Positions 989 to 13,114 of a stretch of DNA of 64,000 nucleotides are shown piece after piece. Made by a program: the position numbers and the translations under genes. Positions within the stretch are counted from its first letter, which is position 1. Each line of letters starts with the position of its first letter. The stretch lies in assembly GCF_003351025.1 (NCBI RefSeq), contig NZ_QPCG01000002.1:744001-808000 (forward strand). Direction: 5' to 3'. This stretch comes from Mucilaginibacter endophyticus. GTDB lineage: Bacteria > Bacteroidota > Bacteroidia > Sphingobacteriales > Sphingobacteriaceae. Under the pieces are notes generated by a model. The model did no database searches, was not told the origin of the DNA, and worked only from the letters and a program-made list of their open reading frames with translations.

Positions 989-1741
989 TTATTTCGATCC
1001 CGCCCAAAGGATAGCATCCCTGAGCAGTGCTATATAACTTTGATTGGCGAATACCGAAGGATCATGCCCGATGCCTATATAAATCATGCGCCGGTATTTT
1101 TCATTCGTCCAGATGATGGGATGATCGCCCATCGGTTTATTTTGCTTAAAGCTTAATTCGTCGGCGGTAGCCAGAACACGCACATTGGGCCGCGGGCTTT
1201 TATCAAACTCGTACCATTCGTCGGAAATCTCGAATTTAGCAGGCAAGTTTTTAGTGGCCGGATGCCGGTGGTCTTCTACAATAACAGTTCCTCTTTGATA
1301 GGCCGGATGCGGCGAATAGACCACGCCTCCCATGAAGTCCTCAAACCATTGCCAGTATTTGGTATTTTTTGCCAGAAACTCCGTTCCGGTTAAACCGGCG
1401 GCATGAATCCCTACCCAACCTTTCCCCTGCTCAACAAACTTTTGTAACGCGGCCTGCTGAGTATTCGAAATATCAAAAGGCGCCAGTTGCATCATCACAA
1501 ATACCTGGTAGTTCTTTAGATTCCCGTCGTTGATCTTGCTTGAATCGTCCGTGTAATCAACTTTAAACTGATTGTCCTTACCCAGTTTTTCGAAAAGCGG
1601 TTTGGCAGCAGTCATCATTTTAATGTGATCATCAGAACGGGAAATCACCACCAAAGCCTTGAATTTGTATGGCTGCGCAACAGCAATATTTACCAATAAC
1701 AGTGGGATTAATGCACTTACAATATATTTCAGCTTGCCCAT
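989..1741 (-). CDS. Secreted ThuA-domain protein (copy 2)
   Basis: This 250-residue ThuA-domain protein has a signal peptide (LKYIVSALIPLLLVNIAVAQ) and the landmarks GWVGIHAAG, EWYEFDKSPRPNVRVLA, MGDHPIIWTN and IGIGHDPSVF. The ATG at 1739-1741 is preferred because it directly precedes the Lys-containing start of the signal peptide. A TTG at 1748-1750, immediately after the upstream stop codon, would add three residues. The stop of the redoxin gene lies only 9 nt before this ATG, so translation is probably coupled. It is a diverged tandem paralogue of the gene at 205-963. The exact reaction of ThuA proteins is unknown; a role in handling sugars released by the neighbouring hydrolases is inferred from position only. 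Confidence 0.85.
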   Translation of the reverse strand: MGKLKYIVSALIPLLLVNIAVAQPYKFKALVVISRSDDHIKMMTAAKPLFEKLGKDNQFKVDYTDDSSKINDGNLKNYQVFVMMQLAPFDISNTQQAALQKFVEQGKGWVGIHAAGLTGTEFLAKNTKYWQWFEDFMGGVVYSPHPAYQRGTVIVEDHRHPATKNLPAKFEISDEWYEFDKSPRPNVRVLATADELSFKQNKPMGDHPIIWTNEKYRRMIYIGIGHDPSVFANQSYIALLRDAILWAGSK

Positions 1742-1750
1742 CGGTATCAA

Positions 1751-2884
1751 TTATTTGTAGATCCGGCCCATCATCGGGTTATTCCAGATCACTTTTTTAA
1801 GTTCTTCAATATCGATAGCCCCCTGGTGACTATATACTACTTTCCCATCCGGATCAATCAGCATGGTATAAGGCAAGGCACCATCCCATTTAGGATCTAC
1901 TGCCTCAATCATTTTGTATTTATCATCGCCGGTATAGATGTAATTAGTCCCTGACGATTGCTTACGTTGTAAGAATTTGAGGGCTTTATCCTTATTAGCG
2001 GGATCATCGGCACTGATACTTACAAACTCAAGCCCCCTGTCGCGGTATAGCCTGTTTAATGTAACCAGATCATCGAACTCGGCAACACAAGGGCCACACC
2101 AGGTTGCCCAAAGGTTGATCATCCTCAACCTGTCCGAATGATTTTTTACAACAGTTGCGATTCCGGCAGCGCTGATGGTATCAATCTTTACCGGTTCTTT
2201 TGCCCATTGAATTTGCGCCTTATCTATCCAATCCTTTTTCTCGGCCCATTTAACCGAGCAACCAAAAGTTTTGGTAACAGGCACGGCAATATCTTTACCC
2301 TCCAATACGGCGTCGATAGCATTACGTGCATCCTGCGATTTTGGGGTTTTGGCAGGATTTTCCATATCATCAATCCGGCCGTTGTACCTAAGCTTCCTGT
2401 CTTTATCAAACACAAAAATATGGGGAGTAGCAACGGGACCATATTTGTTGGAGGGCACTTCAGTTTCGCCATCGTACAAGTATGGGAAGTTAAAGCCTTT
2501 ATCTTTGGCACGTGTTTTCATTTCTTCAAATGAATCACCTAAATCACTGTATCCCAATTCATCATAACGCAATGAAGATGGATTATTGGGGTTGATAGCC
2601 ACAACACTAACACCCTTTGATGCATAATCGCTGGTCAGTTTGACCACTCTGTCTTCGTAAGCCTGCGATGTTGGGCAATGATTACACATAAAAACCACAA
2701 CCAACACTTTGGCATTTTTAAATGATTGCACGGTGTAAGTTTTACCATCAATGCCCGGCAAACTAAAATCAGGTGCCTGAGCGCCGATAGCCAGCGTTTT
2801 GTGCTCATCCGCCGCAAAGCAAAATATCGGGACGCATAGTAACAGCGCAAGGGCAAAACTTATGTGAAAGCTCCAGTTCTTCAT
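1751..2884 (-). CDS. Secreted double thioredoxin-fold (redoxin + TlpA-like) protein
   Basis: The 377-residue protein has a signal peptide (to about residue 24, ending FCFAA) and two thioredoxin folds. The N-terminal one (about 30-190) is AhpC/TSA-like (APDFSLPGIDGKTY) with a Cys pair in CNHCPT. The C-terminal one (about 240-370) is TlpA/ResA-like with the classical motif WATWCGPC and the cis-Pro region GALPYTMLIDPDGKVVY. Thiol-disulfide exchange in the periplasm is the family role. The gene sits 23 nt after the GH9 gene and just before two ThuA genes, so it appears to be an operon partner of extracytoplasmic sugar enzymes rather than of cytochrome maturation. Whether the N-terminal CxxC domain is a peroxidase or only a redox partner cannot be told from sequence. 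Confidence 0.88.
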   Translation of the reverse strand: MKNWSFHISFALALLLCVPIFCFAADEHKTLAIGAQAPDFSLPGIDGKTYTVQSFKNAKVLVVVFMCNHCPTSQAYEDRVVKLTSDYASKGVSVVAINPNNPSSLRYDELGYSDLGDSFEEMKTRAKDKGFNFPYLYDGETEVPSNKYGPVATPHIFVFDKDRKLRYNGRIDDMENPAKTPKSQDARNAIDAVLEGKDIAVPVTKTFGCSVKWAEKKDWIDKAQIQWAKEPVKIDTISAAGIATVVKNHSDRLRMINLWATWCGPCVAEFDDLVTLNRLYRDRGLEFVSISADDPANKDKALKFLQRKQSSGTNYIYTGDDKYKMIEAVDPKWDGALPYTMLIDPDGKVVYSHQGAIDIEELKKVIWNNPMMGRIYK

Positions 2885-2907: not shown

Positions 2908-4761
2908 TTAATCGCTTGTTGAAACTGCCAGCAGGTACCAGGCCGTGTGCGGCAACCATTGCTCGGCCCAGCGCCAGTCCGAGTCTTTGCCCGACACAGC
3001 ATAGGGAATATTAAAGTCAATATCATCCTCATTATCAAAGCCCGAGGTAATGCCATTTACAATACCGCCCGGCGCGTTGGTATATTCAAACGTGCCAAAA
3101 AAGCCATACGCCGGATTGTTATGCCCTGTACCCTGCAGCATACTGGCATCAAATGGGTTCAATCCCAAAATCCAGTTAAGCTGGTCAATGGCAAAACCTG
3201 AAAGCTGGTCATGAAAAGCTTTATCATCTTTAAACAGGTTTGCAGCCATCCGCGCGGCAGTAGCCACCGAACCAAGCCTTGCATTTTCTCCCTGCCACCA
3301 GGGCGAAGCATCACTGCCATGTGGGAAAAAGAAAGCACTATGGCGGTTGCCCAAAGTATCCTGCACCAATTCGCGACTGTAACCAAAGGGATTATTTACC
3401 TCATGAGTGATAGCCAGCTCAAACTCCATTGATTTCCTTATGGCCGACTTGATCTTTGCCTGAAGATCTGCAGAAGCATAGGGGTAATAATACAACAGAC
3501 TAACAACCGGTAACCCGCCATCCGAAGGGTGAAAGAAAGGTCGGTCTTTATCATCGGCACGCCAAAAATTTTGATATTTATTCCATGAGGTTAGGCGATT
3601 GAGCAAATTATTTGCCCGTTTTTCGGCTGATGTTTTATATACCTCTTTGTGAGTTACCTTATAAAGCTCAGTCGCGGCGCTTAAAGCGCAATAATCGTCA
3701 AGGATATTTTCCTTTTTATCATAGTCCATTTGCGGGTTTTCCTTTTCCAAAAAGGCAAAGGCATTTTCAGCGGCCTTCAGGTAATCTGCATTGCTAAACT
3801 CACCCGATGTTTGGTAAGCTGATGCCATTGCCAACGCGGCGATAGAAATACCTGCCCCTGAACGGTAACTGGCCTGGTAACTGCGCCAGTTTTTACCGGT
3901 TGTAGTTTTGGTGAACGATTGATCTTTAGTTTGCTTGATCCGGTAACTACCTTCATCCGCCTGAATTACGCGGTCTTTAGGTAGCTTCCCCGGTCCGGGC
4001 GAAGAAACCGAGCGATAAAAAGAGCCGTTTTTCGCCTGCATCCTTACCAAATAATCAGCGCCATACATAGCCTCATCTAAAATCCGCCTGTTAAACTGCC
4101 TGAAATCAGTTCCGGGGCGCGCGCTTAACAACTCATAGGTTTTGAACAGACTAAAAGCCGTTAATGAGATTTGCTGCGGATTAAAATAATTAGAGAATGA
4201 CAGGTGCGAAAGATGTTTGCCATAATCGCCGGTGGCATCATACCAACCGCCGTGCGCGTCAACAGTGTCCGTTGTTCCTGATAATACCAAATGATGATCG
4301 GCTTTATCTAACAGGCCGGAGCTTCGCTGTCCCTTAAAGTAATATACTACGTCAGATATGGTTGCTTTTTCAAGCACGTTCTTGCCTATAATAAAAGGAT
4401 AAGACGAAATTATCCCCTTTGGCGAATTGAATTGTATTTTGTAAGTCCCCGGCTTTGTAAAACCGCTGAAATCAAGCGTCCAAAATTCAAAGTTCTTCCA
4501 ATGATTCACCGGGCCGCTGTAGTTGATTTGCCCGGTAAATACGGTATTTCCTTTATCAGCATCAATAAGTTTAAATGATGTAAAGGCAAGATGACTATCT
4601 GCAACTATAATGGCGCGTTTGGCCTTATTATCCTCGTAGCCTACATGATTGGTTACCACTTTAATACTTTGCGCCTGCGCAATAAATGGCAATCCTGCTA
4701 AAACAAGGCAGCACTTTTTGCATATAGCCGAAAGAAGATCGATACGCTTTTTTAGGTTCAT
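2908..4761 (-). CDS. Glycoside hydrolase family 9 enzyme with N-terminal Ig-like domain
   Basis: The 617-residue protein starts with a signal peptide (to about residue 31), then a CelD_N-type Ig-like domain (about 32-125) and a GH9 (alpha/alpha)6 catalytic domain. Catalytic features are the base loop GGWYDATGDYGKH with Asp175 and Asp179, the WILGLNPFDASMLQGTG block, and the general acid Glu600 in WRWAEQWLPH. The loop is DATGD, one residue longer than the DAGD of typical endoglucanases; a longer loop followed by a LSHLSFSNYFNPQQ-like stretch is, as I recall it, seen in GH9 exo-beta-D-glucosaminidases. That makes chitosan oligosaccharides a possible substrate, but cellulase activity is not excluded. 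It heads a minus-strand operon whose promoter carries the shared regulatory element. Confidence 0.88.
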   Translation of the reverse strand: MNLKKRIDLLSAICKKCCLVLAGLPFIAQAQSIKVVTNHVGYEDNKAKRAIIVADSHLAFTSFKLIDADKGNTVFTGQINYSGPVNHWKNFEFWTLDFSGFTKPGTYKIQFNSPKGIISSYPFIIGKNVLEKATISDVVYYFKGQRSSGLLDKADHHLVLSGTTDTVDAHGGWYDATGDYGKHLSHLSFSNYFNPQQISLTAFSLFKTYELLSARPGTDFRQFNRRILDEAMYGADYLVRMQAKNGSFYRSVSSPGPGKLPKDRVIQADEGSYRIKQTKDQSFTKTTTGKNWRSYQASYRSGAGISIAALAMASAYQTSGEFSNADYLKAAENAFAFLEKENPQMDYDKKENILDDYCALSAATELYKVTHKEVYKTSAEKRANNLLNRLTSWNKYQNFWRADDKDRPFFHPSDGGLPVVSLLYYYPYASADLQAKIKSAIRKSMEFELAITHEVNNPFGYSRELVQDTLGNRHSAFFFPHGSDASPWWQGENARLGSVATAARMAANLFKDDKAFHDQLSGFAIDQLNWILGLNPFDASMLQGTGHNNPAYGFFGTFEYTNAPGGIVNGITSGFDNEDDIDFNIPYAVSGKDSDWRWAEQWLPHTAWYLLAVSTSD

Positions 4762-5138: not shown

Positions 5139-5576
5139 ATGGAGAATACCGGAAGCACAAGAAAATTTCTGATAGCAACGCACGGCAAACTTGCAGGTGG
5201 CATAAAATCATCGCTTGATATTATTACTGGCACTGCGGATAGCATTTTTTTGATTGAAGCTTATGTCGATGAAAACCGCTCATTAGAAGATGATATTAAA
5301 ACGGTAGTTGATCAAATTGCAGACAATGATGAATTGATTGTTTTTTCTGACATCATGGGCGGCAGTGTTACCAACCAGATACTACAATATGCCCTGCAGC
5401 CTAACGTACATGTGGTTTCGGGCTTTAATCTTCCGCTGGTAATTGAAATTATATTGGCTGATGCGGACACTCCCGCAGAAGAAGTAATTGCCGAAGCTAT
5501 TGAAAACGCTAAGCAACAAATGGTATATGTAAATAAACTTTTAACCGCCCAAAACCAGGAGGAAGAAAATGATTAA
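5139..5576 (+). CDS. PTS mannose-family EIIA component
   Basis: The 145-residue protein is a stand-alone EIIA of the mannose/sorbose/N-acetylgalactosamine PTS family. The phosphorylated histidine is His15 in FLIATHGKLAGGIKSSLDIITG (shown to 20 residues as ATHGKLAGGIKSSLDIITG), and the FSDIMGGSVTNQ block near residue 75 is family-typical. It would take phosphate from HPr and pass it to EIIB in the cytoplasm. The ATG at 5139 is preferred over the TTG immediately before it. It is the first gene of a six-gene PTS operon, is preceded by the shared regulatory element, and overlaps EIIB by 8 nt. Confidence 0.93.
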   Translation: MENTGSTRKFLIATHGKLAGGIKSSLDIITGTADSIFLIEAYVDENRSLEDDIKTVVDQIADNDELIVFSDIMGGSVTNQILQYALQPNVHVVSGFNLPLVIEIILADADTPAEEVIAEAIENAKQQMVYVNKLLTAQNQEEEND

Positions 5577-6039
5577 GCTAACCCGTATTGACGACAGACT
5601 GGTTCATGGTCAGGTAGCTTTTACATGGACACCTGCGCTTGGTGCCGATTGCCTGCTGATTGCCAACGACAAAGTAGCCAAGGATGAGTTTATGAAGATG
5701 ACCCTTGGCCTTGCAAAACCGACAGGCACCAAACTACTGATCAAACCGGTAAAAGAGGCGGCCGCTTTTTTGAATGACGAAAAAAGCAAAAACGCAAAAG
5801 TTTTAATACTGATCAACAGCGTTAAGGATGCCGCGGCCCTCGCAGCCGAAGTACCTGAAATTACAACCATAAACTTCGGTGGACTTAGATCGAAAGATGG
5901 CTCAAAGCTGATATCAAAAGCGATAGCAGTTAATGATGATGATATAGCCATCATTCGCGAAATGCTGGCAAAAGGCCTTGAGCTGGAAGTACGGCAGGTA
6001 CCTACTGACAATAAACAGCTTGTAGCAAATCTGATTTAA
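5569..6039 (+). CDS. PTS mannose-family EIIB component
   Basis: The 156-residue protein matches the EIIB (PTSIIB_sorb) family from its first residues: IKLTRIDDRLVHGQV holds the active His13 that receives phosphate from EIIA and donates it to the incoming sugar. The start is firm: ATG at 5569 is preceded by AGGAGGAAGAAA, an unusually strong Shine-Dalgarno for Bacteroidota, although those bases also encode the acidic tail of EIIA. The gene overlaps EIIA by 8 nt. Family members act on mannose, sorbose, N-acetylgalactosamine, glucosamine and related sugars, and the sequence alone does not fix the substrate. Confidence 0.93.
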   Translation: MIKLTRIDDRLVHGQVAFTWTPALGADCLLIANDKVAKDEFMKMTLGLAKPTGTKLLIKPVKEAAAFLNDEKSKNAKVLILINSVKDAAALAAEVPEITTINFGGLRSKDGSKLISKAIAVNDDDIAIIREMLAKGLELEVRQVPTDNKQLVANLI

Positions 6040-6081
6040 ATAAACATATTTAACAAACTCACAAACAACAACTTAATCCTC

Positions 6082-7668
6082 TTGTCAGTATCATACTTAC
6101 TCATCGCGCTGATAGCGATGTTTGGACATTCGGAAGATTTTCTGGGCACTACCCAGCTTAGCCGCCCCCTGGTGCTTGGCCCGTTGGTTGGCCTGGTGCT
6201 TGGCGATGTAACCCAGGGCGTGATCATCGGCGCTACGCTTGAACTCATATTCATGGGTAATATCAAGGTTGGGGCCGCCATTCCGCCAGATGTAATTACC
6301 GGCGGCGTACTGGGTACGGCGTTTGCCATCATCTCGGGCAAAGGCCCCGCAATTGCGTTGGCCATAGCAGTACCTGTTTCCATACTGGCCGAAATGGTGA
6401 TCAGTGGTTTGTTTGTATTGCGGGCTATGCTTAATAAAAAGTTTAATCAATATGCCGAAGATGGTGATTTTAAAGGCATTCAACGCCTGCATATCATTTC
6501 AGGACTATTGCGGCCGTTACTCATGGGCATTATCGTTATGCTGGCACTGCAGTTGGGTGCCGGCGCTATGAAAACATTTCTGGAAATGATACCGGCGTGG
6601 GTGCAAACAGGCTTACAGGTTGCAGGCAATATGCTGCCCGCTTTAGGTTTTGCCCTGCTCATGAACCTGATGTTCAATAAAAACATGGCCCCCTATTTTT
6701 TCCTGGGCTTTATGCTGGCAGCCTATCTGAAATTACCGGTAATAGCGATTGGCGGCTTCGGAGTTATTATCGCCTTGTTGGTAACACAGGTTGCCCCTAA
6801 ACCGGCCGTCGATGACGACGATGATTTTGGAGCTGATGAGGAACCGGCAGAGCAAATAAAGCCGAACCCAAAGCTGAGCAAGCGTGATATCCGCATGCTC
6901 TTCTTCCGCTCGTTGGCGTTGGAAGCCAATTTCAATTTTGAAACATGGCAAAATACCGGCTTCGCATTTTCTATTATACCAGTCCTGAAAAGGCTTTACA
7001 ATACAAAAGAGGCTATGACGGCCGCTTTGAAAAGACATTTGCAGTTTTTTAATACCAGTCCATACGGTTCTACATTAATAATGGGCATCACAGCAGCTAT
7101 GGAAGAACAAAACAGCAATGACGGGGATTTCGACGAGGAATCCATCAATTCGGTAAAACTGGGCCTGATGGGGCCACTGGCTGGAGTATTCGACTCTTTG
7201 TTTTGGGGAACATTTAAAGTGATTGCTGCCGGAGTCGGAACATCGCTGGCCATTAAAGGCAATATCCTGGGACCATTGTTATTCCTGTTGATATTTAATG
7301 TACCGCATTTATTATTACGCTATAAACTAACCTTTGTGGGTTACGATGCGGGGACACGCTTTTTGCAAAACCTGGCCAAAAATAATGTGATGGACAGGCT
7401 CACTAAAAGCTCTTCTATTTTAGGATTGATGGTTGTTGGGGCTATGCCGGCAACGCTCATGAACATCACTACACCATTACATATCGGCACAGAAAAATCA
7501 GCGGTGGGCGTTCAAAGCATTTTAGACCAAGTAGTGCCTGCCATGATACCGTTGGGGCTTACTTTTTTAGTGTATTATTTTGTTAAAAAGAATATTAAAA
7601 CCACATACCTGTTATTAGGCCTGCTGTTGCTTGGTTTTGCAGGGAGTATTATCCACCTGTTTGCATAA
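6082..7668 (+). CDS. Fused PTS EIIC-EIID membrane permease
   Basis: The 528-residue protein joins two normally separate mannose-family subunits. Residues about 1-240 are EIIC (EII-Sor), a multi-helix permease (LSRPLVLGPLVGLVLGD, then GAAIPPDVITGG). An acidic, Pro-rich linker (about 238-265, with DDDDD) leads to EIID (about 266-528; LSKRDIRMLFFRSLALEANF, GPLAGVFDSLFWG, and C-terminal helices). Together they form the sugar channel. There is no in-frame ATG before the first helix; the frame runs back to the EIIB stop at 6037-6039, so TTG at 6082 is the likely start. ATG 6118 would remove half of the first helix. No Shine-Dalgarno is visible. Confidence 0.9.
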   Translation: MSVSYLLIALIAMFGHSEDFLGTTQLSRPLVLGPLVGLVLGDVTQGVIIGATLELIFMGNIKVGAAIPPDVITGGVLGTAFAIISGKGPAIALAIAVPVSILAEMVISGLFVLRAMLNKKFNQYAEDGDFKGIQRLHIISGLLRPLLMGIIVMLALQLGAGAMKTFLEMIPAWVQTGLQVAGNMLPALGFALLMNLMFNKNMAPYFFLGFMLAAYLKLPVIAIGGFGVIIALLVTQVAPKPAVDDDDDFGADEEPAEQIKPNPKLSKRDIRMLFFRSLALEANFNFETWQNTGFAFSIIPVLKRLYNTKEAMTAALKRHLQFFNTSPYGSTLIMGITAAMEEQNSNDGDFDEESINSVKLGLMGPLAGVFDSLFWGTFKVIAAGVGTSLAIKGNILGPLLFLLIFNVPHLLLRYKLTFVGYDAGTRFLQNLAKNNVMDRLTKSSSILGLMVVGAMPATLMNITTPLHIGTEKSAVGVQSILDQVVPAMIPLGLTFLVYYFVKKNIKTTYLLLGLLLLGFAGSIIHLFA

Positions 7669-7680
7669 AGAAAAACATAA

Positions 7681-9393
7681 ATGAAGGGAATTGGAGTTTC
7701 ACCAGGCATTGCTATAGGAAGGGCGTTTGTTATCAAAAAAAACGCTCCTGCTACCAACGGTATTATTTTAAAAAACCAGGTTGAGATAGTAGCGGAAATT
7801 GAACGTTTTGACATTTCAGTTGTCAATGCGCTTGCCGAGATAGATGCCATCAAAAACAGCTCACAACTGATGCTCAATGATGATGACATCGCTATACTGG
7901 AAACACAGGTGGAGTTGATCAATGATCCCCAGATCCGTGAAGATGTGGTAGCTAAGATTGAAGAAGAGAAAAAGACCGCCAATGATGCGATGATAGAAGT
8001 TACTGCTGGCATTGTCACCCTGTTTGAGAGTATGGACGATGAATATATGCGTGCCCGCTCAGCGGATTTTCAGGATATCGGCAACCGGATCCTCAAATAC
8101 ATCAACCGTACAGGCGATACCAATAACCGTTCGTTCGAACCGGATACCATTGTTATTGCAGACGACCTCACTCCTTCCGACACGATCACGTTAGACCTTA
8201 ACCTTGTCACCGGTTTTGCAACACAAGCGGGCAGCCGTACTTCGCACGCGGCTATTATAGCCAAATCAAAAGGGCTGCCTGCGGTTGTAGCCTGCGGCGA
8301 TGAGTTAATGACTATCAATCATAACGACTTTATCATTCTAGACGGCCTCAGTGGTTCGGTTTACGTCAATCCAGGCGAGGATATCATTAGCAGATACTCG
8401 GCTAAATCCGCCTCTTTTAGGCGACAGGCAGAGGTATTAAAAATGGTTAAAGACAAGCCTGCTATTACAGCCGATGGTAAACAGGTAACCTTGCTTGCCA
8501 ATATCTCGGATGCCGATGACCTGGCTATGGTTCATGACAACGGCGGTGAAGGTGTTGGCCTTTTCCGTACCGAAATGCTATTTATGGATCGCGATACCTT
8601 CCCCGATGAAGATGAACAATTTGAGTTTTATAAAAAAGCGGTTTTAAAGGCAAAAGGCAAACCCATAGTTATACGAACCATTGATATAGGTGGCGATAAA
8701 CACCTGTCATACTTTAACTTACCAACCGAACTTAATCCTTTTCTTGGCTACCGTGCTATCCGTATTTCGCTCGATCAGGAAGGCTTATTTATTGTGCAGC
8801 TTAAAGCCATTTTAAGGGCTTCCGCATTTGGATCGGTTAGTATTATGTTCCCGATGATCTCGAACGTAAAAGAGGTCCGCGACGCGAAATTCATCCTAAA
8901 TAAAGCAAAAAACGAGCTGCTTGAAGCAGGTATCGCATTCAGTAATGATGTGAAGGTTGGGATCATGGTCGAGATTCCGTCAGCTGCTGTTACAGCGGAT
9001 ATCCTTGCTAAAGAAGTGGATTTTTTCAGCATCGGCACTAATGACCTTTGCCAGTATACCCTGGCAGTGGACAGGATGAATGAAAAGATCACCCACCTGT
9101 ACGACCCGTTTAATCCAGGTGTGCTACGCCTCATTCTAAATGTAATTGAACAAGGCCGTGCGCATAACATCCACGTGGGCATGTGCGGCGAAATGGCTTC
9201 CGACCCGCTGGCAACCCTGTTATTATTAGGCATGGGGTTGGAAGAGTTTTCTATGAGTGCTGCCTCTATTCCTGCAATAAAAAACATTATCATTAATAAC
9301 AGCGAAGCAACAGCTAAGCAGGTATGCCAGCAAGTAATGGCTATGGACAGCTCAGAGAACGTTACTGCTTATTTAAAGGAGATAACCCAATGA
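7681..9393 (+). CDS. ptsI: PTS enzyme I (phosphoenolpyruvate-protein phosphotransferase)
   Basis: This 570-residue protein is a full-length enzyme I, which takes phosphate from phosphoenolpyruvate and gives it to HPr. The phosphorylated His is codon 189 (GSRTSHAAIIAKSKGLPAVV) and the catalytic Cys is codon 502 (GMCGEMASDP), the same numbers as in E. coli EI. The TIM-barrel domain shows GGDKHLSYF, NPFLGYRAIR and GTNDLCQYTLAVDRMNE. The N-terminal HPr-binding helical domain is complete. It follows EIIC-EIID by 12 nt and its TGA overlaps the HPr ATG. Its place inside a sugar-specific operon, rather than in a general pts locus, suggests this is the cell's dedicated phosphorelay for this sugar. Confidence 0.96.
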   Translation: MKGIGVSPGIAIGRAFVIKKNAPATNGIILKNQVEIVAEIERFDISVVNALAEIDAIKNSSQLMLNDDDIAILETQVELINDPQIREDVVAKIEEEKKTANDAMIEVTAGIVTLFESMDDEYMRARSADFQDIGNRILKYINRTGDTNNRSFEPDTIVIADDLTPSDTITLDLNLVTGFATQAGSRTSHAAIIAKSKGLPAVVACGDELMTINHNDFIILDGLSGSVYVNPGEDIISRYSAKSASFRRQAEVLKMVKDKPAITADGKQVTLLANISDADDLAMVHDNGGEGVGLFRTEMLFMDRDTFPDEDEQFEFYKKAVLKAKGKPIVIRTIDIGGDKHLSYFNLPTELNPFLGYRAIRISLDQEGLFIVQLKAILRASAFGSVSIMFPMISNVKEVRDAKFILNKAKNELLEAGIAFSNDVKVGIMVEIPSAAVTADILAKEVDFFSIGTNDLCQYTLAVDRMNEKITHLYDPFNPGVLRLILNVIEQGRAHNIHVGMCGEMASDPLATLLLLGMGLEEFSMSAASIPAIKNIIINNSEATAKQVCQQVMAMDSSENVTAYLKEITQ

Positions 9394-9656
9394 TAACCAA
9401 AGATTATATCATCACATCGGCGCAGGGAATGCATGCCCGCCCGGCAACACAGCTTGTTAAACTGGTAAAAGGCTTTAAATCGGCGACAAGTTTAAAAAAA
9501 GGCGACAAAATTGTTAAACTGAACAGCTTGCTTAATATCCTGTCGCTGAGCATTAAAGGCGGCGAAACCATTTCAGTAATTATGGATGGCGAAGATGAAG
9601 TGAGCGCAGCCATTGTTATTGATGATTTTTTCACCAAACAGCTTAAAGAACTATAA
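9390..9656 (+). CDS. ptsH: PTS phosphocarrier protein HPr
   Basis: The 88-residue protein has the HPr fold signature with the phospho-His at residue 15 (GMHARPATQ). Ser46 lies in VKLNSLLNILSLSIKGG, the position used by HPr kinase/phosphorylase in organisms that have that enzyme. The start ATG (9390) overlaps the EI stop codon as ATGA, so translation is coupled. HPr shuttles phosphate from EI to EIIA. No HPr kinase gene is present in this window, so regulation through Ser46 is only a possibility. Confidence 0.95.
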   Translation: MITKDYIITSAQGMHARPATQLVKLVKGFKSATSLKKGDKIVKLNSLLNILSLSIKGGETISVIMDGEDEVSAAIVIDDFFTKQLKEL

Positions 9657-9678
9657 AAAGCAAAAAAACTAATCTATT

Positions 9679-9807
9679 CATTGCTGTTGACTTTAGTCAA
9701 CGGTAAAGGCAACAGTAAGCGGGCTTTAGCCCAAATGCAAGGCGACAATTCGGCTGAAGCCATTAAATCATTTGTCATTATTCCGTTGACTAAAGTCAAC
9801 GGCAATG
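9679..9807. repeat. Composite palindromic intergenic repeat with 25-bp inverted ends
   Basis: The outer arms 9679-9703 and 9783-9807 are inverted copies with one mismatch in 25; each also folds alone as GTTGACT-2 nt-AGTCAAC. Between them are GGGCT-TT-AGCCC (9721-9732) and GGCT-GA-AGCC (9752-9761). So four short hairpins of one design (stem, 2-nt loop, stem) are framed by one large one. It splits HPr from the deaminase gene. The design resembles REP/BIME-type elements mobilised by RAYT transposases; no transposase gene is nearby. Confidence 0.8.
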
Positions 9808-9837
9808 ATTATTAAAGCAAAAACACAAACATCACGC

Positions 9838-10596
9838 ATGAAAGTAACTATAACCAAAAGCGAACAGGAATTTGATATCACCGCGGCATGGCGCATCATT
9901 GCGCAGATGCTTGAAAAACGAACGTCGGTAATTGGCCTCTCAACCGGGCAAACTACCATTGGTATGCACCGTATCGTTTCAGAAATCTACGCTAAATACC
10001 CGTTTGATGTGTCAAACATTACCCTGTTTAACGTGGATGAACTTACCAATCTGGAACGTGAATACGTGGGCAGTTGCTATACCATGATCCTGAACCAGAT
10101 TGCCGGCCCGCTGGGGATTCCTGAAGAAAACTTTATTATGCCGCCTACCCTTTCTGATGATTTTGTGGCGGAGAGCATCCTGTTTGAAAAACGCCTTGCC
10201 GAGCGGGGCGGAGCCGATCTGCAGATGCTGGGCATAGGCAGCAACGGGCATATCGGCATCAATCAGCCCGGAACGCCATTTGAAAGCGAAACCTGGGTAT
10301 CACCAATGGACCCGGACTTTGAAGCACGCGTACGCCGTGAAACCCAGGTACCACCAGAAACCGAACTTGGAGGGTTAACACGCGGGGTTAAAAACATTAT
10401 GCATACCCGCAAACTTATCCTGATAGCTAAAGGCAGCCACAAAGCCGAAATCATTAAACAAGCCATATTAGGGCCTGTAAGCACCGATATCCCGGCCTCG
10501 GTGGTGCAATTGCATCCTAAATGTGAGATCTTGTTAGATGCCGATGCAGGCGCTTTAATAGCTGATTACGCTAAGGAACGCGGCTATAATTGGTAA
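9838..10596 (+). CDS. Glucosamine-6-phosphate deaminase-like protein (NagB family) with altered active site
   Basis: The 252-residue protein belongs to the NagB/6-phosphogluconolactonase fold. It would convert an amino-sugar 6-phosphate, probably glucosamine-6-phosphate, to a ketose phosphate and ammonia, completing the PTS pathway. The active-site block GIGSNGHIGINQPG keeps His138 (E. coli NagB His143). Asn136 replaces Asp141, a change also seen in Gram-positive NagB, and Gln143 replaces the catalytic Glu148, which is unusual. The first-Asp region reads FNVDELTNLEREYVG. The ATG at 9838 is chosen because the earlier in-frame ATG (9805) lies inside the right arm of the repeat. No NagA deacetylase is present, which favours glucosamine over GlcNAc as the imported sugar. 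Confidence 0.8.
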   Translation: MKVTITKSEQEFDITAAWRIIAQMLEKRTSVIGLSTGQTTIGMHRIVSEIYAKYPFDVSNITLFNVDELTNLEREYVGSCYTMILNQIAGPLGIPEENFIMPPTLSDDFVAESILFEKRLAERGGADLQMLGIGSNGHIGINQPGTPFESETWVSPMDPDFEARVRRETQVPPETELGGLTRGVKNIMHTRKLILIAKGSHKAEIIKQAILGPVSTDIPASVVQLHPKCEILLDADAGALIADYAKERGYNW

Positions 10597-10624
10597 TTTA
10601 TTTATAATCCAACCTGAACTTTAT

Positions 10625-10663
10625 AAAGCAGGCCACAGGGTAATCCGGAGGCCTGCTTTTTTT
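10625..10663 (+). terminator. Intrinsic terminator of the PTS-deaminase operon
   Basis: AAAGCAGGCC (10625-10634) pairs with GGCCTGCTTT (10650-10659) around a 15-nt loop and continues into a run of T on the plus strand. It lies 29 nt after the deaminase stop and before the convergent chitinase gene. Confidence 0.85.
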
Positions 10664-10682
10664 GTGATATGTCGAGGGTACT

Positions 10683-11831
10683 TTAATTCAAGTGGCTATT
10701 AGCGGCGTCAAGCAAATATTCTTTCCTATCATCAACATATTCCCAGAACATTACCCCGGCCATGCCGTTCTTTTTCACGTACCGGCATTTCTTTCTAATC
10801 GACCATTCATCGTCAAATGATAAAAACTGGCGGGTTGTTGGGTTATATAAATACGGCGCCTTAGCACTTTTATCCCGATAGTATTTGAATGCTTTATTGG
10901 TGAGGAGGCTATCTTTTATGAAAGTATAGCCACCGCCCCGCATCCTTTCGAGATTGCGCGAACCCAGCCCGGTTTTGGTACTGTCAGACACTCTTGTGGA
11001 ACGACTGTAAAAAGCCATCCCTAAAACAAGCTTATTCCGCGGAACACCCGCTTCAATAAAAACCCGGGTACCATTATCCGAATTATTTTCTGTCTTAAGA
11101 TACTTTGAAGCATACAAGCCGGTATGATGTACCGCTACATCGGCACCGTAATCGTAAGTCATGAGGTTGATATAATCCAGGCAAGCGCCTACTTTATCCA
11201 TTTCTGTGTTCTGCACAAAATGCCTGAAGGCACCTACGGCTGCTGTAAGCAACAATTTTTTACCGGTTTCTTTTTCAAGCGCGTTCAACTGAGTCCTCAG
11301 TTCCAGGAATAAACTGGTATAGTTCTGTTTATCCTCCGGGCGATGGACGTTACCTGCGCCGGATTCATTGGGATACTCCCAGTCGATGTCAATACCATCC
11401 ATTTTAAACTTACGCACCAATTCAACGGCACTTGCAGCAAAAGCTTTACGCGAAGTGTCGGTGAGCGCCATATCCGAAAAGTTTTTGCTCCACAGCCACC
11501 CGCCTATCGAAATCAAAACTTTCAAATCGGTGTTCTTTTTCTTTAATCCAACCAAATACCTGAAGTTGATGGTATCCGTTCGGGGATGGGTAAGAAAAGC
11601 GCGGTTCCCGATCACATTTACAAACGCGTAATTAATATGTGTAAGCTTTGCCGGATGAACCATGTTAGTATCTATCAACCCGCGAAAGCCACTCACATAA
11701 CCGATTATAACATGCTTTTTAGCCCGGTTTTTCTGCGCATAAACCAGGTTTGCCGAAAGTATAAGGCATAGGAAAGCCATCAGCCGGTTTCTATATTGCC
11801 CCGGCCGCAATAATGATGCAAAGTTTGTCAT
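10683..11831 (-). CDS. Glycoside hydrolase family 18 chitinase
   Basis: The 382-residue protein has an N-terminal export signal (about residues 1-33, ending ANLVYAQ) and one GH18 TIM barrel. The catalytic motif DxxDxDxE is intact: Asp145, Asp148, Asp150 and Glu152 in MDGIDIDWEYPN. Other barrel landmarks are VLISIGGWLWS, INLMTYDYG and the final GVMFWEYVDD. GH18 enzymes cleave beta-1,4 links of N-acetylglucosamine polymers with retention. No carbohydrate-binding module is attached, so it may act on soluble oligosaccharides at the cell surface or periplasm. It is the last gene of the minus-strand operon with DUF5009 and the GH55-like protein (23-nt gap). Confidence 0.93.
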   Translation of the reverse strand: MTNFASLLRPGQYRNRLMAFLCLILSANLVYAQKNRAKKHVIIGYVSGFRGLIDTNMVHPAKLTHINYAFVNVIGNRAFLTHPRTDTINFRYLVGLKKKNTDLKVLISIGGWLWSKNFSDMALTDTSRKAFAASAVELVRKFKMDGIDIDWEYPNESGAGNVHRPEDKQNYTSLFLELRTQLNALEKETGKKLLLTAAVGAFRHFVQNTEMDKVGACLDYINLMTYDYGADVAVHHTGLYASKYLKTENNSDNGTRVFIEAGVPRNKLVLGMAFYSRSTRVSDSTKTGLGSRNLERMRGGGYTFIKDSLLTNKAFKYYRDKSAKAPYLYNPTTRQFLSFDDEWSIRKKCRYVKKNGMAGVMFWEYVDDRKEYLLDAANSHLN

Positions 11832-11854
11832 CAGAATTTAGGTATGTATAATAT

Positions 11855-13114
11855 TTAAATCTTCAGGCGTAATCTTTTCTTTTCAAGTAATCCGACAAAT
11901 AGAATAATAACCACGGCGGTCAGGAATGAACGCAGTAACCCCGGAAATCCATTATTAATAATACTCGGATAATTAATATGAAATAACTCCAGTATAAAAA
12001 CCTGAAAATACGGGATCAGGTAACAGGTGAGCGTACTGGTGCCGGCGGGTTTGATCCAGTTAAAGGCGCTTATTTTCCCTTTAACATCAACCACATATAT
12101 CAATATTAAAAACGCCAGCGTAGTAATGCCCGAGCAAATGAGCACCCATGCCGGTGTTGAACGAATTTTAGAAATCCCTTCGGTATAAGGTCGTAAGGCA
12201 AAACCGACAACCAGGAACAAAACGCCAATAATAGCCAGTGTAGCCCAAATCCGTTGTGTTTTACCCTGTTCAACCAGCCTGGCGTAGATGCCAGAGATAA
12301 CCACGCCGCCCATAGTTAAAGTCATGGTTGAGGCATCATGGATTATCCAGAGTGGTTTTAAAAAGATAATCGCGTTGCCAAGAAAGCTTCCGGTAAAGTT
12401 GTTACCGGCGATAGTGACCATTTCTTCATCATGCGTTACTTTTATCTTAAATACCGAGTGGGCAATGATATTAATGGCTATCAGTACTACCCATGCTACG
12501 ACAAGCCTGTTTAATTTTCCTTTAACCGCGACAAATATCAGCGCGCAAACCAGGTATGCCCAGCCTATTAAACCTAATATTCCCCACCAGGATGGTTCCA
12601 TCCACCTTACCTCACCATCTTCGCCACCTTTATAAATTACGGCCATGGCTATCAGCATAATAATCCCCAGCATTTGCAGCGAATATCTTTTGGCCTTTGC
12701 CATAGTTTCGGGGTAATCCAGCCAGATCAGGAAGAACGCTGTTGTAATAACCAGCGCCCATGCTGCTTTCGGAATTATAGCAGCCGATGAATTATAATCT
12801 TCAAGGTTTACATGGTAAAAACCCATAATGAGCAATGCAACACTCCTTATCAGTATGTAAAACAAAACCTGCCGGCCGCTATCACCTTTTTTGATCCTGT
12901 TATTGATGGCAAATGGTAACGACAAACCTACAATGAACAAAAACGCCGGAAAAATAGTATCGGCAAAACCCATTCTGTCTTCAAAGCCCTTAGCATGGTC
13001 TATCCACTCGGGAATATGCTTCACTCCGCTGGCATCGTTAACAAATATCATCAGCAGCATAGTGATAGCACGCAATACATCGATGGACAACAGGCGCTTT
13101 GGTAATTGTTGCAT
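11855..13114 (-). CDS. DUF5009 / heparan-alpha-glucosaminide N-acetyltransferase-like membrane protein
   Basis: The 419-residue integral membrane protein opens with RLLSIDVLRAITMLLMIFVN, the hallmark of the HGSNAT/NagX/DUF5009 group, and has about 10 hydrophobic helices ending in a Lys/Arg-rich tail. The family is thought to move an acetyl group across the membrane onto the free amino group of extracytoplasmic glucosamine residues. That chemistry fits its place between a chitinase and a GH55-like gene and beside an amino-sugar PTS, but the substrate is inferred. Gaps of 21-23 nt to both neighbours show it is co-transcribed. Confidence 0.82.
   Translation of the reverse strand: MQQLPKRLLSIDVLRAITMLLMIFVNDASGVKHIPEWIDHAKGFEDRMGFADTIFPAFLFIVGLSLPFAINNRIKKGDSGRQVLFYILIRSVALLIMGFYHVNLEDYNSSAAIIPKAAWALVITTAFFLIWLDYPETMAKAKRYSLQMLGIIMLIAMAVIYKGGEDGEVRWMEPSWWGILGLIGWAYLVCALIFVAVKGKLNRLVVAWVVLIAINIIAHSVFKIKVTHDEEMVTIAGNNFTGSFLGNAIIFLKPLWIIHDASTMTLTMGGVVISGIYARLVEQGKTQRIWATLAIIGVLFLVVGFALRPYTEGISKIRSTPAWVLICSGITTLAFLILIYVVDVKGKISAFNWIKPAGTSTLTCYLIPYFQVFILELFHINYPSIINNGFPGLLRSFLTAVVIILFVGLLEKKRLRLKI

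Follow-up and report, generated by a model that had tools for sequence, protein, structure and literature searches.

A 64,000-nt stretch of the genome of the soil bacterium Mucilaginibacter endophyticus (contig NZ_QPCG01000002.1, positions 744,001 to 808,000; the window) carries, at positions 5139-10596, a six-gene operon for a mannose-family phosphotransferase system (PTS) and a NagB-like protein, a relative of glucosamine-6-phosphate (GlcN-6-P) deaminase. The operon is real, intact and rare. The reading favored here, with a probability of about 0.6, is that the PTS would import a hexosamine, most likely glucosamine, that the NagB-like protein would deaminate the product, and that a glycoside hydrolase of family 9 (GH9) encoded beside the operon would supply the sugar. 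The parts, their order, the relay residues, their conservation and their co-occurrence were read from the sequence, and it is from these that transport, substrate, reaction and the location of GH9 are inferred. The new elements are the fused EIIC-EIID carrier, the private pair of Enzyme I (EI) and HPr, and the Gln-variant NagB relative; the underlying mannose-family PTS is already known.

The six genes are co-directional and follow the order EIIA, EIIB, fused EIIC-EIID, EI, HPr and NagB-like. All six products exceeded their Pfam gathering scores, with 61 bits for EIIA-man, 158 for PTSIIB_sorb, 252 for EII-Sor and 325 for EIID-AGA (the last two within one protein of 528 residues), 395 for PEP-utilizers_C in EI, 75 for HPr and 53.1 for Glucosamine_iso (PF01182, gathering score 27) in the NagB-like protein. 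EI and HPr also passed NCBIfam cut-offs (TIGR01417, 653; TIGR01003, 72), and the other four products fell below every NCBIfam cut-off. The mannose-family domain set found by these profile searches is complete (EIIA-man, EIIB-sorb, EIIC-sorb and the family-specific EIID), which bears out the complete, self-contained PTS in a single operon proposed in a preliminary description of this DNA. The phospho-transfer residues named there are likewise all present and were invariant in the aligned relatives: EI His189 and Cys502 in 62 of 62 rows, HPr His15 in 47 of 47, the EIIA histidine in 55 of 55 (three outgroup rows included) and the EIIB histidine in 51 of 51 (five outgroup rows included). The aligned rows are open reading frames (ORFs) found by a simple picker, after removal of duplicates and of loci L010-L015, which repeat named loci or belong to the flank of the window itself.

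EIIC and EIID are separate subunits in the usual mannose-family arrangement. The preliminary description names the EIIC-EIID gene; it can now be added that it encodes one fused protein throughout the operon family. A single EIIC-EIID ORF of 481-551 residues was present in each of the 62 copies that no contig end truncates, the window's among them, and separate EIIC and EIID were found only in four outgroup loci (L081-L084). The separate subunits by which a mannose-family PTS might be recognized are thus not found in the operon family, in which the arrangement differs and the fold does not. In the solved complexes that were found, EIIC and EIID occupy separate chains, and the two halves of an AlphaFold model of the fusion match the solved ManY-type and ManZ-type chains separately; the model (mean predicted local distance difference test score 67, predicted template modeling score 0.62, poor at residues 184-260) was used for fold assignment only. 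The window protein is 98% identical to its Mucilaginibacter kameinonensis counterpart. In a metagenome-assembled genome (MAG; locus L046, 481 residues), the matched coding length is not a multiple of three, and this copy is probably frameshifted near its start.

Relatives of the operon were sought by scanning 84,980 species genomes with exact short peptides, which returned 70 loci, a lower bound. The 66 non-outgroup loci represent about 63 genomes, since three MAGs, judged by record names, appear as two contigs each (L020/L085, L070/L078 and L076/L080). They belong to Mucilaginibacter, Pedobacter, Hufsiella, Daejeonella, Dyadobacter, Chryseolinea, Chitinophaga, Puia, Ferruginibacter, unnamed MAGs and one contig labeled Beijerinckiaceae, and the operon spans at least three orders. 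All six genes occur in identical order in 58 of the 71 loci (window included); the other 13 comprise eight cut by contig ends, the four outgroups and one that lacks the relay (L068). Contamination or misassembly was rejected because the window is part of a 1.41 Mb contig, in a 7.5 Mb genome, and because the operon recurs, complete or truncated, in 66 other loci. In an EIIC-EIID tree built by a quick method, Dyadobacter formed one clade and Chryseolinea serpens paired with a Ferruginibacter MAG (support 99), a pairing that is compatible with transfer between orders but does not prove it. The contig labeled Beijerinckiaceae (L071) carries a Bacteroidota-type operon and a SusC/SusD pair, and is probably misbinned.

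Sugar import in Bacteroidia is generally regarded as independent of a PTS. The operon proved not to be widespread among ordinary Bacteroidota, and the rarity claimed in the preliminary description stands. EIID (PF03613) exceeded its cut-off in one of 395 genomes of the phylum, the window's own, the second hit being a sub-threshold fragment of 77 positions with two stops; in the family it was found in six of 201 genomes, own included. EI (PF05524) occurred in a single genome among 247 from the class, likewise the window's own, and PF02378, the other large EIIC family, in one of 198 genomes of the phylum. Because all three frequencies are so low, Bacteroidia in these samples appear to be generally without a PTS. 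A report on Tannerella forsythia describes sugar import without a PTS (PMC5790795). The earlier statement that most Bacteroidota lack a full PTS holds for the class samples; EI as such is common in other classes and in the wider phylum sample (278 of 395 genomes). Among the EI matches listed there, all but the window's own were marked as same phylum, not same class. Eight EI loci from other classes (L117-L124) had an HPr neighbor in seven cases and no match to the window EIIA, EIIB or EIIC-EIID. No description of the operon or of the EIIC-EIID fusion was found among the titles and opening lines of abstracts listed from an open-licence library.

The NagB-like protein is the best conserved of the six components, with a median identity of 86% to its window counterpart, compared with 80% for EIIC-EIID, 70% for EIIB and 60-61% for EIIA, EI and HPr; it ranks first in 56 of 57 loci. 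It was also found, at 83-100% identity, in all six EIID-positive genomes among the 201 of the family. The sole other close match in that sample was a 69-residue fragment at a contig edge (genome G469); the next match by E-value had 33% identity, and the others listed at E 1e-30 or better had 35% or less. Co-occurrence with EIID was significant with the G469 fragment counted against it (Fisher p 8e-11). The start is most likely the ATG at 9838 rather than 9805, since the median length of the homologues is 252 residues. Asp67 (presumably the counterpart of the active-site Asp72 of E. coli NagB) and His138 are invariant in the homologues, and the phosphate-site motif STGxTT is present; the score against the NCBIfam nagB equivalog (TIGR00502) was 132, short of the cut-off of 236.9.

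The one irregular feature of the operon is the 181-nt gap between HPr and the NagB-like start, which is filled by an element resembling a repetitive extragenic palindrome (REP). The genome contains the 18-base core of this element in 20 exact copies and the reversed control in none; of the 20, 16 form eight inverted pairs, 96-106 nt apart. The element is absent from the same gap in L017 and L018. The gap measured -1 to 74 nt in 43 of the 46 loci in which both ORFs were found; the only long gaps were those of the window, M. kameinonensis (179 nt) and M. oryzae (191 nt). Since the window's gap is an inserted palindrome and the gap is short in 43 of 46 loci, the NagB-like gene was taken as a member of the operon, and the possibility that it is a separate, unrelated gene was rejected. 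The M. oryzae gap (L019) has a different sequence, also with a palindrome, at the same position in the operon.

The candidate source of the sugar is the product of the divergent GH9 gene, which the preliminary description left out of the system; the six genes that it did include stand. GH9 gave full-length matches of 437-460 bits to three structures (3h7l, 5dgq and 6gdt), the next PDB hit scoring 41 bits. These three belong to a Vibrionaceae group of exo-acting glucosidases/glucosaminidases, of which V. cholerae VC0615 cleaved (GlcN)2 much faster than cellobiose and left (GlcNAc)2 uncleaved (PMC6096475; GlcN, glucosamine; GlcNAc, N-acetylglucosamine). Alignments showed that both the window GH9 and a Dyadobacter GH9 retain the catalytic Asp140, Asp144 and Glu546 of VC0615 (numbering of PMC6096475). 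Neighbor counts were restricted to the 49 of 67 loci in which EIIC-EIID is flanked by 7 kb or more in each direction, the window not being among them; 38 of the 49, spread over eight named genera or groups, had a GH9 gene near the operon, on one strand or the other. Exo-type GH9 was present in all six EIID-positive genomes of the family sample and in 14 of its 195 EIID-negative genomes (Fisher p 5e-7, kinship ignored).

Coordinates of the operon and neighboring features in the window; counts of relatives refer to the 49 loci.
Feature	Position	Strand	Remarks
Two ThuA-domain proteins	205-963, 989-1750	-	ThuA near 28/49 relatives
Thioredoxin/AhpC-TSA-like protein	1751..2884	-	Downstream of GH9; near 24/49 relatives
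GH9 exo-glycosidase (putative)	2908..4761	-	Divergent from PTS operon; N-terminal signal-like sequence (by eye); PDB 3h7l, 5dgq, 6gdt
EIIA (mannose family, PF03610)	5139..5576	+	Phospho-His15; start ATG 5139; Pfam/NCBIfam profiles, alignment
EIIB (sorbose/mannose family, PF03830)	5569..6039	+	Phospho-His13; 8-nt overlap with EIIA
EIIC-EIID fusion, 528 residues	6082..7668	+	PF03609 at residues 4-232, acidic linker, PF03613 at residues 264-527
Enzyme I (TIGR01417)	7681..9393	+	His189, Cys502; profiles, alignment
HPr	9391..9656	+	His15 and Ser of the presumed regulatory site; start 9391; 4-nt overlap with EI stop
REP-like palindromic element	9675..9811		Between HPr and NagB; 29-nt arms, 93% complementary, 79 nt apart
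NagB-like protein, 252 residues	9838..10596	+	Asp67 and His138 kept; Gln143 replaces E. coli Glu148; listed ORF begins 9805
GH18 chitinase-like protein	10683..11831	-	Near 9/49 relatives
DUF5009 membrane protein	11855..13114	-	Presumably NagX-like; sub-cut-off HGSNAT_cat match; near 7/49 relatives

Fusions link several of the neighboring products. ThuA-GH9 fusions were found in L051 (15328-17922) and L062 (8675-11902), and a GH9-thioredoxin-like fusion in L071 (1002-4010), which suggests that the GH9, ThuA and thioredoxin-like proteins act together. The GH18 and DUF5009 genes recur in other genera, in differing arrangements. A copper amine oxidase gene lies near the operon in seven of the 49 loci, in three genera (L048, L054, L061 and others). 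Among the annotated neighbor clusters, i.e., those common to at least four loci (three of the representatives had no Pfam match), there was no NagA and no gene for galactosamine breakdown; NagA was not searched for in the rest of the genome.

The neighbors bear on the possibility that the imported sugar is GlcNAc, which would enter through the PTS and be deacetylated by a NagA encoded elsewhere. E. coli ManYZ accepts GlcNAc, and in the window a GH18 chitinase-like gene adjoins the operon. This explanation is nonetheless improbable, as the annotated neighbor clusters include no NagA-like gene (the search did not extend to the rest of the genome) and the characterized GH9 relatives leave (GlcNAc)2 uncut (PMC6096475).

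Several observations weigh against the glucosamine reading. In E. coli NagB, Glu148 contacts the catalytic His143 in the R structure (PMC4008608), and the residue at this position is Gln in 59 of 59 NagB-like copies. As an invariant Gln occupies the place of a His-contacting Glu, GlcN-6-P deaminase activity is therefore not assured; the deaminase assignment in the preliminary description survives for the family, the Asp and the His, but not for this active-site residue. The window GH9 differs from VC0615 beside C2 of the sugar (Tyr148 to His and, in a gapped stretch, Trp220 to Leu), so that one of the three C2-adjacent residues (Tyr148, Trp220 and Tyr/Phe232) is kept, and the Dyadobacter GH9 differs at Trp220 and Tyr232. 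The exo-acting GH9 group also cleaves beta-glucosides. The association of GH9 with the operon is incomplete: 11 of the 49 loci had no GH9 nearby, exo-type GH9 was present in the 14 EIID-negative genomes mentioned above (one match being partial, with a stop), and two of these 14 carry a close window-type GH9, which is thus not exclusive to operon carriers. Finally, the L068 locus, from a MAG, has GH9, EIIC-EIID and NagB genes but lacks those for EIIA, EIIB, EI and HPr; the whole 4.8 Mb of this MAG, which may be incomplete, gave no EI match.

An attempt to derive the specificity of GH9 from its C2-adjacent residues was abandoned, because these residues vary and PMC6096475 sees no link between them and GH9 specificity.

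Some of these points would be accommodated if the operon encoded a working PTS for another substrate. The Gln variant might act on another amino or keto hexose phosphate (e.g., a galactosamine, mannosamine or oxidized-sugar phosphate), or the carrier might mainly take up glucose or mannose released by a GH9 beta-glucosidase. The Glu-to-Gln exchange is invariant, whereas Glu is kept in all three with a readable motif among the five further Glucosamine_iso proteins of the genome; as all 59 copies have Gln and the readable paralogues have Glu, Gln marks, on the sequence evidence, a PTS-linked NagB-like subfamily. The best-scoring models were AgaF for EIIA, AgaW for EIIC and general mannose-type ones for EIID, with no score reaching its cut-off; the C2-pocket residues of GH9 differ, and ThuA-domain proteins recur beside GH9. 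However, the annotated neighbor clusters contain no gene named for galactosamine breakdown, uptake of glucose by a PTS needs no strictly accompanying NagB, and the closest characterized GH9 enzymes prefer glucosamine oligomers (PMC6096475). Another substrate is accordingly considered possible, though distinctly less likely than glucosamine, and an amino sugar, as first proposed, is still the most likely cargo on the present evidence.

The L068 locus also has a bearing on whether the relay works at all. Of the six genes, this MAG retains EIIC-EIID and NagB alone, so loss of the relay is conceivable. It is nevertheless very improbable that the relay is vestigial or serves signaling, with no transport, or that the operon is a contaminating piece of DNA, given that it lies inside a 1.41 Mb contig, that 58 loci have all six genes, the phospho-residues being invariant in the aligned rows, and that relatives in at least three orders have kept it. 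In L068 itself, the GH9, thioredoxin-like, EIIC-EIID and NagB genes stand in a row (7041-12327), which would fit a bin that is incomplete or a carrier that operates without its relay.

For the glucosamine PTS, the outer-membrane step is suggested by the relatives. When 12 SusC/SusD proteins from relatives were compared with the window plus 20 kb upstream (tblastn, E 1e-3), none gave a match, in agreement with the reported lack of a SusC/SusD pair in the window. The preliminary description had left outer-membrane crossing open; the step is not wholly open, because a SusC/SusD pair adjoins the operon in six relatives, though none lies nearby in the window strain. In L064 and L071 the pair sits with GH9, divergent from the PTS, and the relatives together suggest a combined route of SusCD, periplasmic GH9 and PTS. 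An orthologue of the relatives' SusD was sought in the window's own genome, where the best match to one relative's SusD had just 37% identity; this candidate was rejected.

The scheme proposed for the glucosamine reading is as follows. Beta-1,4-glucosaminyl (chitosan-type) oligosaccharides would enter the periplasm through the SusC/SusD pair in some relatives, and through a porin or a distant SusCD in the window strain. The divergent, probably periplasmic GH9 would release the monosaccharide from them. Phosphate would pass from phosphoenolpyruvate to EI His189, HPr His15, EIIA His15, EIIB His13 and finally the sugar in EIIC-EIID, so that GlcN-6-P would appear in the cytoplasm, where the NagB-like enzyme would convert it to fructose 6-phosphate and ammonia. 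The best reading of the sequence is that a PTS has been grafted onto a Bacteroidota glycan-utilization scheme. Tentatively, the operon may even represent a distinct class of PTS in Bacteroidia, with a fused carrier, a private EI-HPr pair, SusC/SusD and periplasmic exo-GH9 in some species, where a polysaccharide-utilization system would thus terminate in a PTS, and a Gln-variant deaminase subfamily of which either the chemistry or the hexosamine substrate would be new.

The presence of EI and HPr genes within this six-gene operon suggests that bacteria without the general proteins can gain a whole PTS in one self-contained package. Its cultured hosts (Mucilaginibacter, Dyadobacter and Chryseolinea) put it within experimental reach, the fused carrier offers structural studies an EIIC:EIID ratio fixed at 1:1, and the invariant Gln allows the catalytic triad of GlcN-6-P deaminases to be tested with a natural variant.

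Among known systems, the mannose-fructose-sorbose PTS (E. coli ManXYZ; ManYZ structures 6k1h and 7dyr; Listeria man-PTS 7vlx) has the same four EII domains and phospho-histidines; against 6k1h, the operon EIID scored 218 bits with chain Z and the EIIC up to 119 bits. The operon differs from a ManXYZ-type PTS in that EIIC and EIID are fused and EI and HPr are encoded in the same operon, and in that it occurs in a class with EI in one of 247 genomes. The nearest non-fused relatives found, at 41-45% identity, were L081, L082 and L084 (Clostridia/Erysipelotrichaceae records) and the MAG locus L083; they differ in having separate EIIC and EIID, a SIS-domain neighbor instead of NagB (one of four cluster members scanned) and no EI or HPr match within the loci. 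The E. coli Aga PTS for galactosamine and N-acetylgalactosamine resembles the operon in that AgaF and AgaW are the best-scoring models for EIIA and EIIC, but the scores lie far below the Aga cut-offs and the annotated neighbors lack Aga catabolic genes.

With the GlcN-6-P deaminase NagB (2bkv, 1cd5 and 1ne7, which we take to be the B. subtilis-type, E. coli and human enzymes), the operon protein shares the family, Asp67, His138 and the STGxTT motif, and it differs in the invariant Gln143 that stands for E. coli Glu148. The window GH9 has full-length similarity to, and the catalytic residues of, the GH9 exo-glucosaminidases of Vibrionaceae (VC0615, 6gdt; P. profundum PBPRA0520, 5dgq/5dgr; V. 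parahaemolyticus, 3h7l), but it has a signal-like N-terminus and other C2-adjacent residues, and its relatives are sometimes fused to ThuA or thioredoxin-like proteins. In PMC6096475, the V. cholerae GH9 is proposed to act on a PTS-imported phosphorylated disaccharide, i.e., after import, whereas the window-type GH9 probably acts before it.

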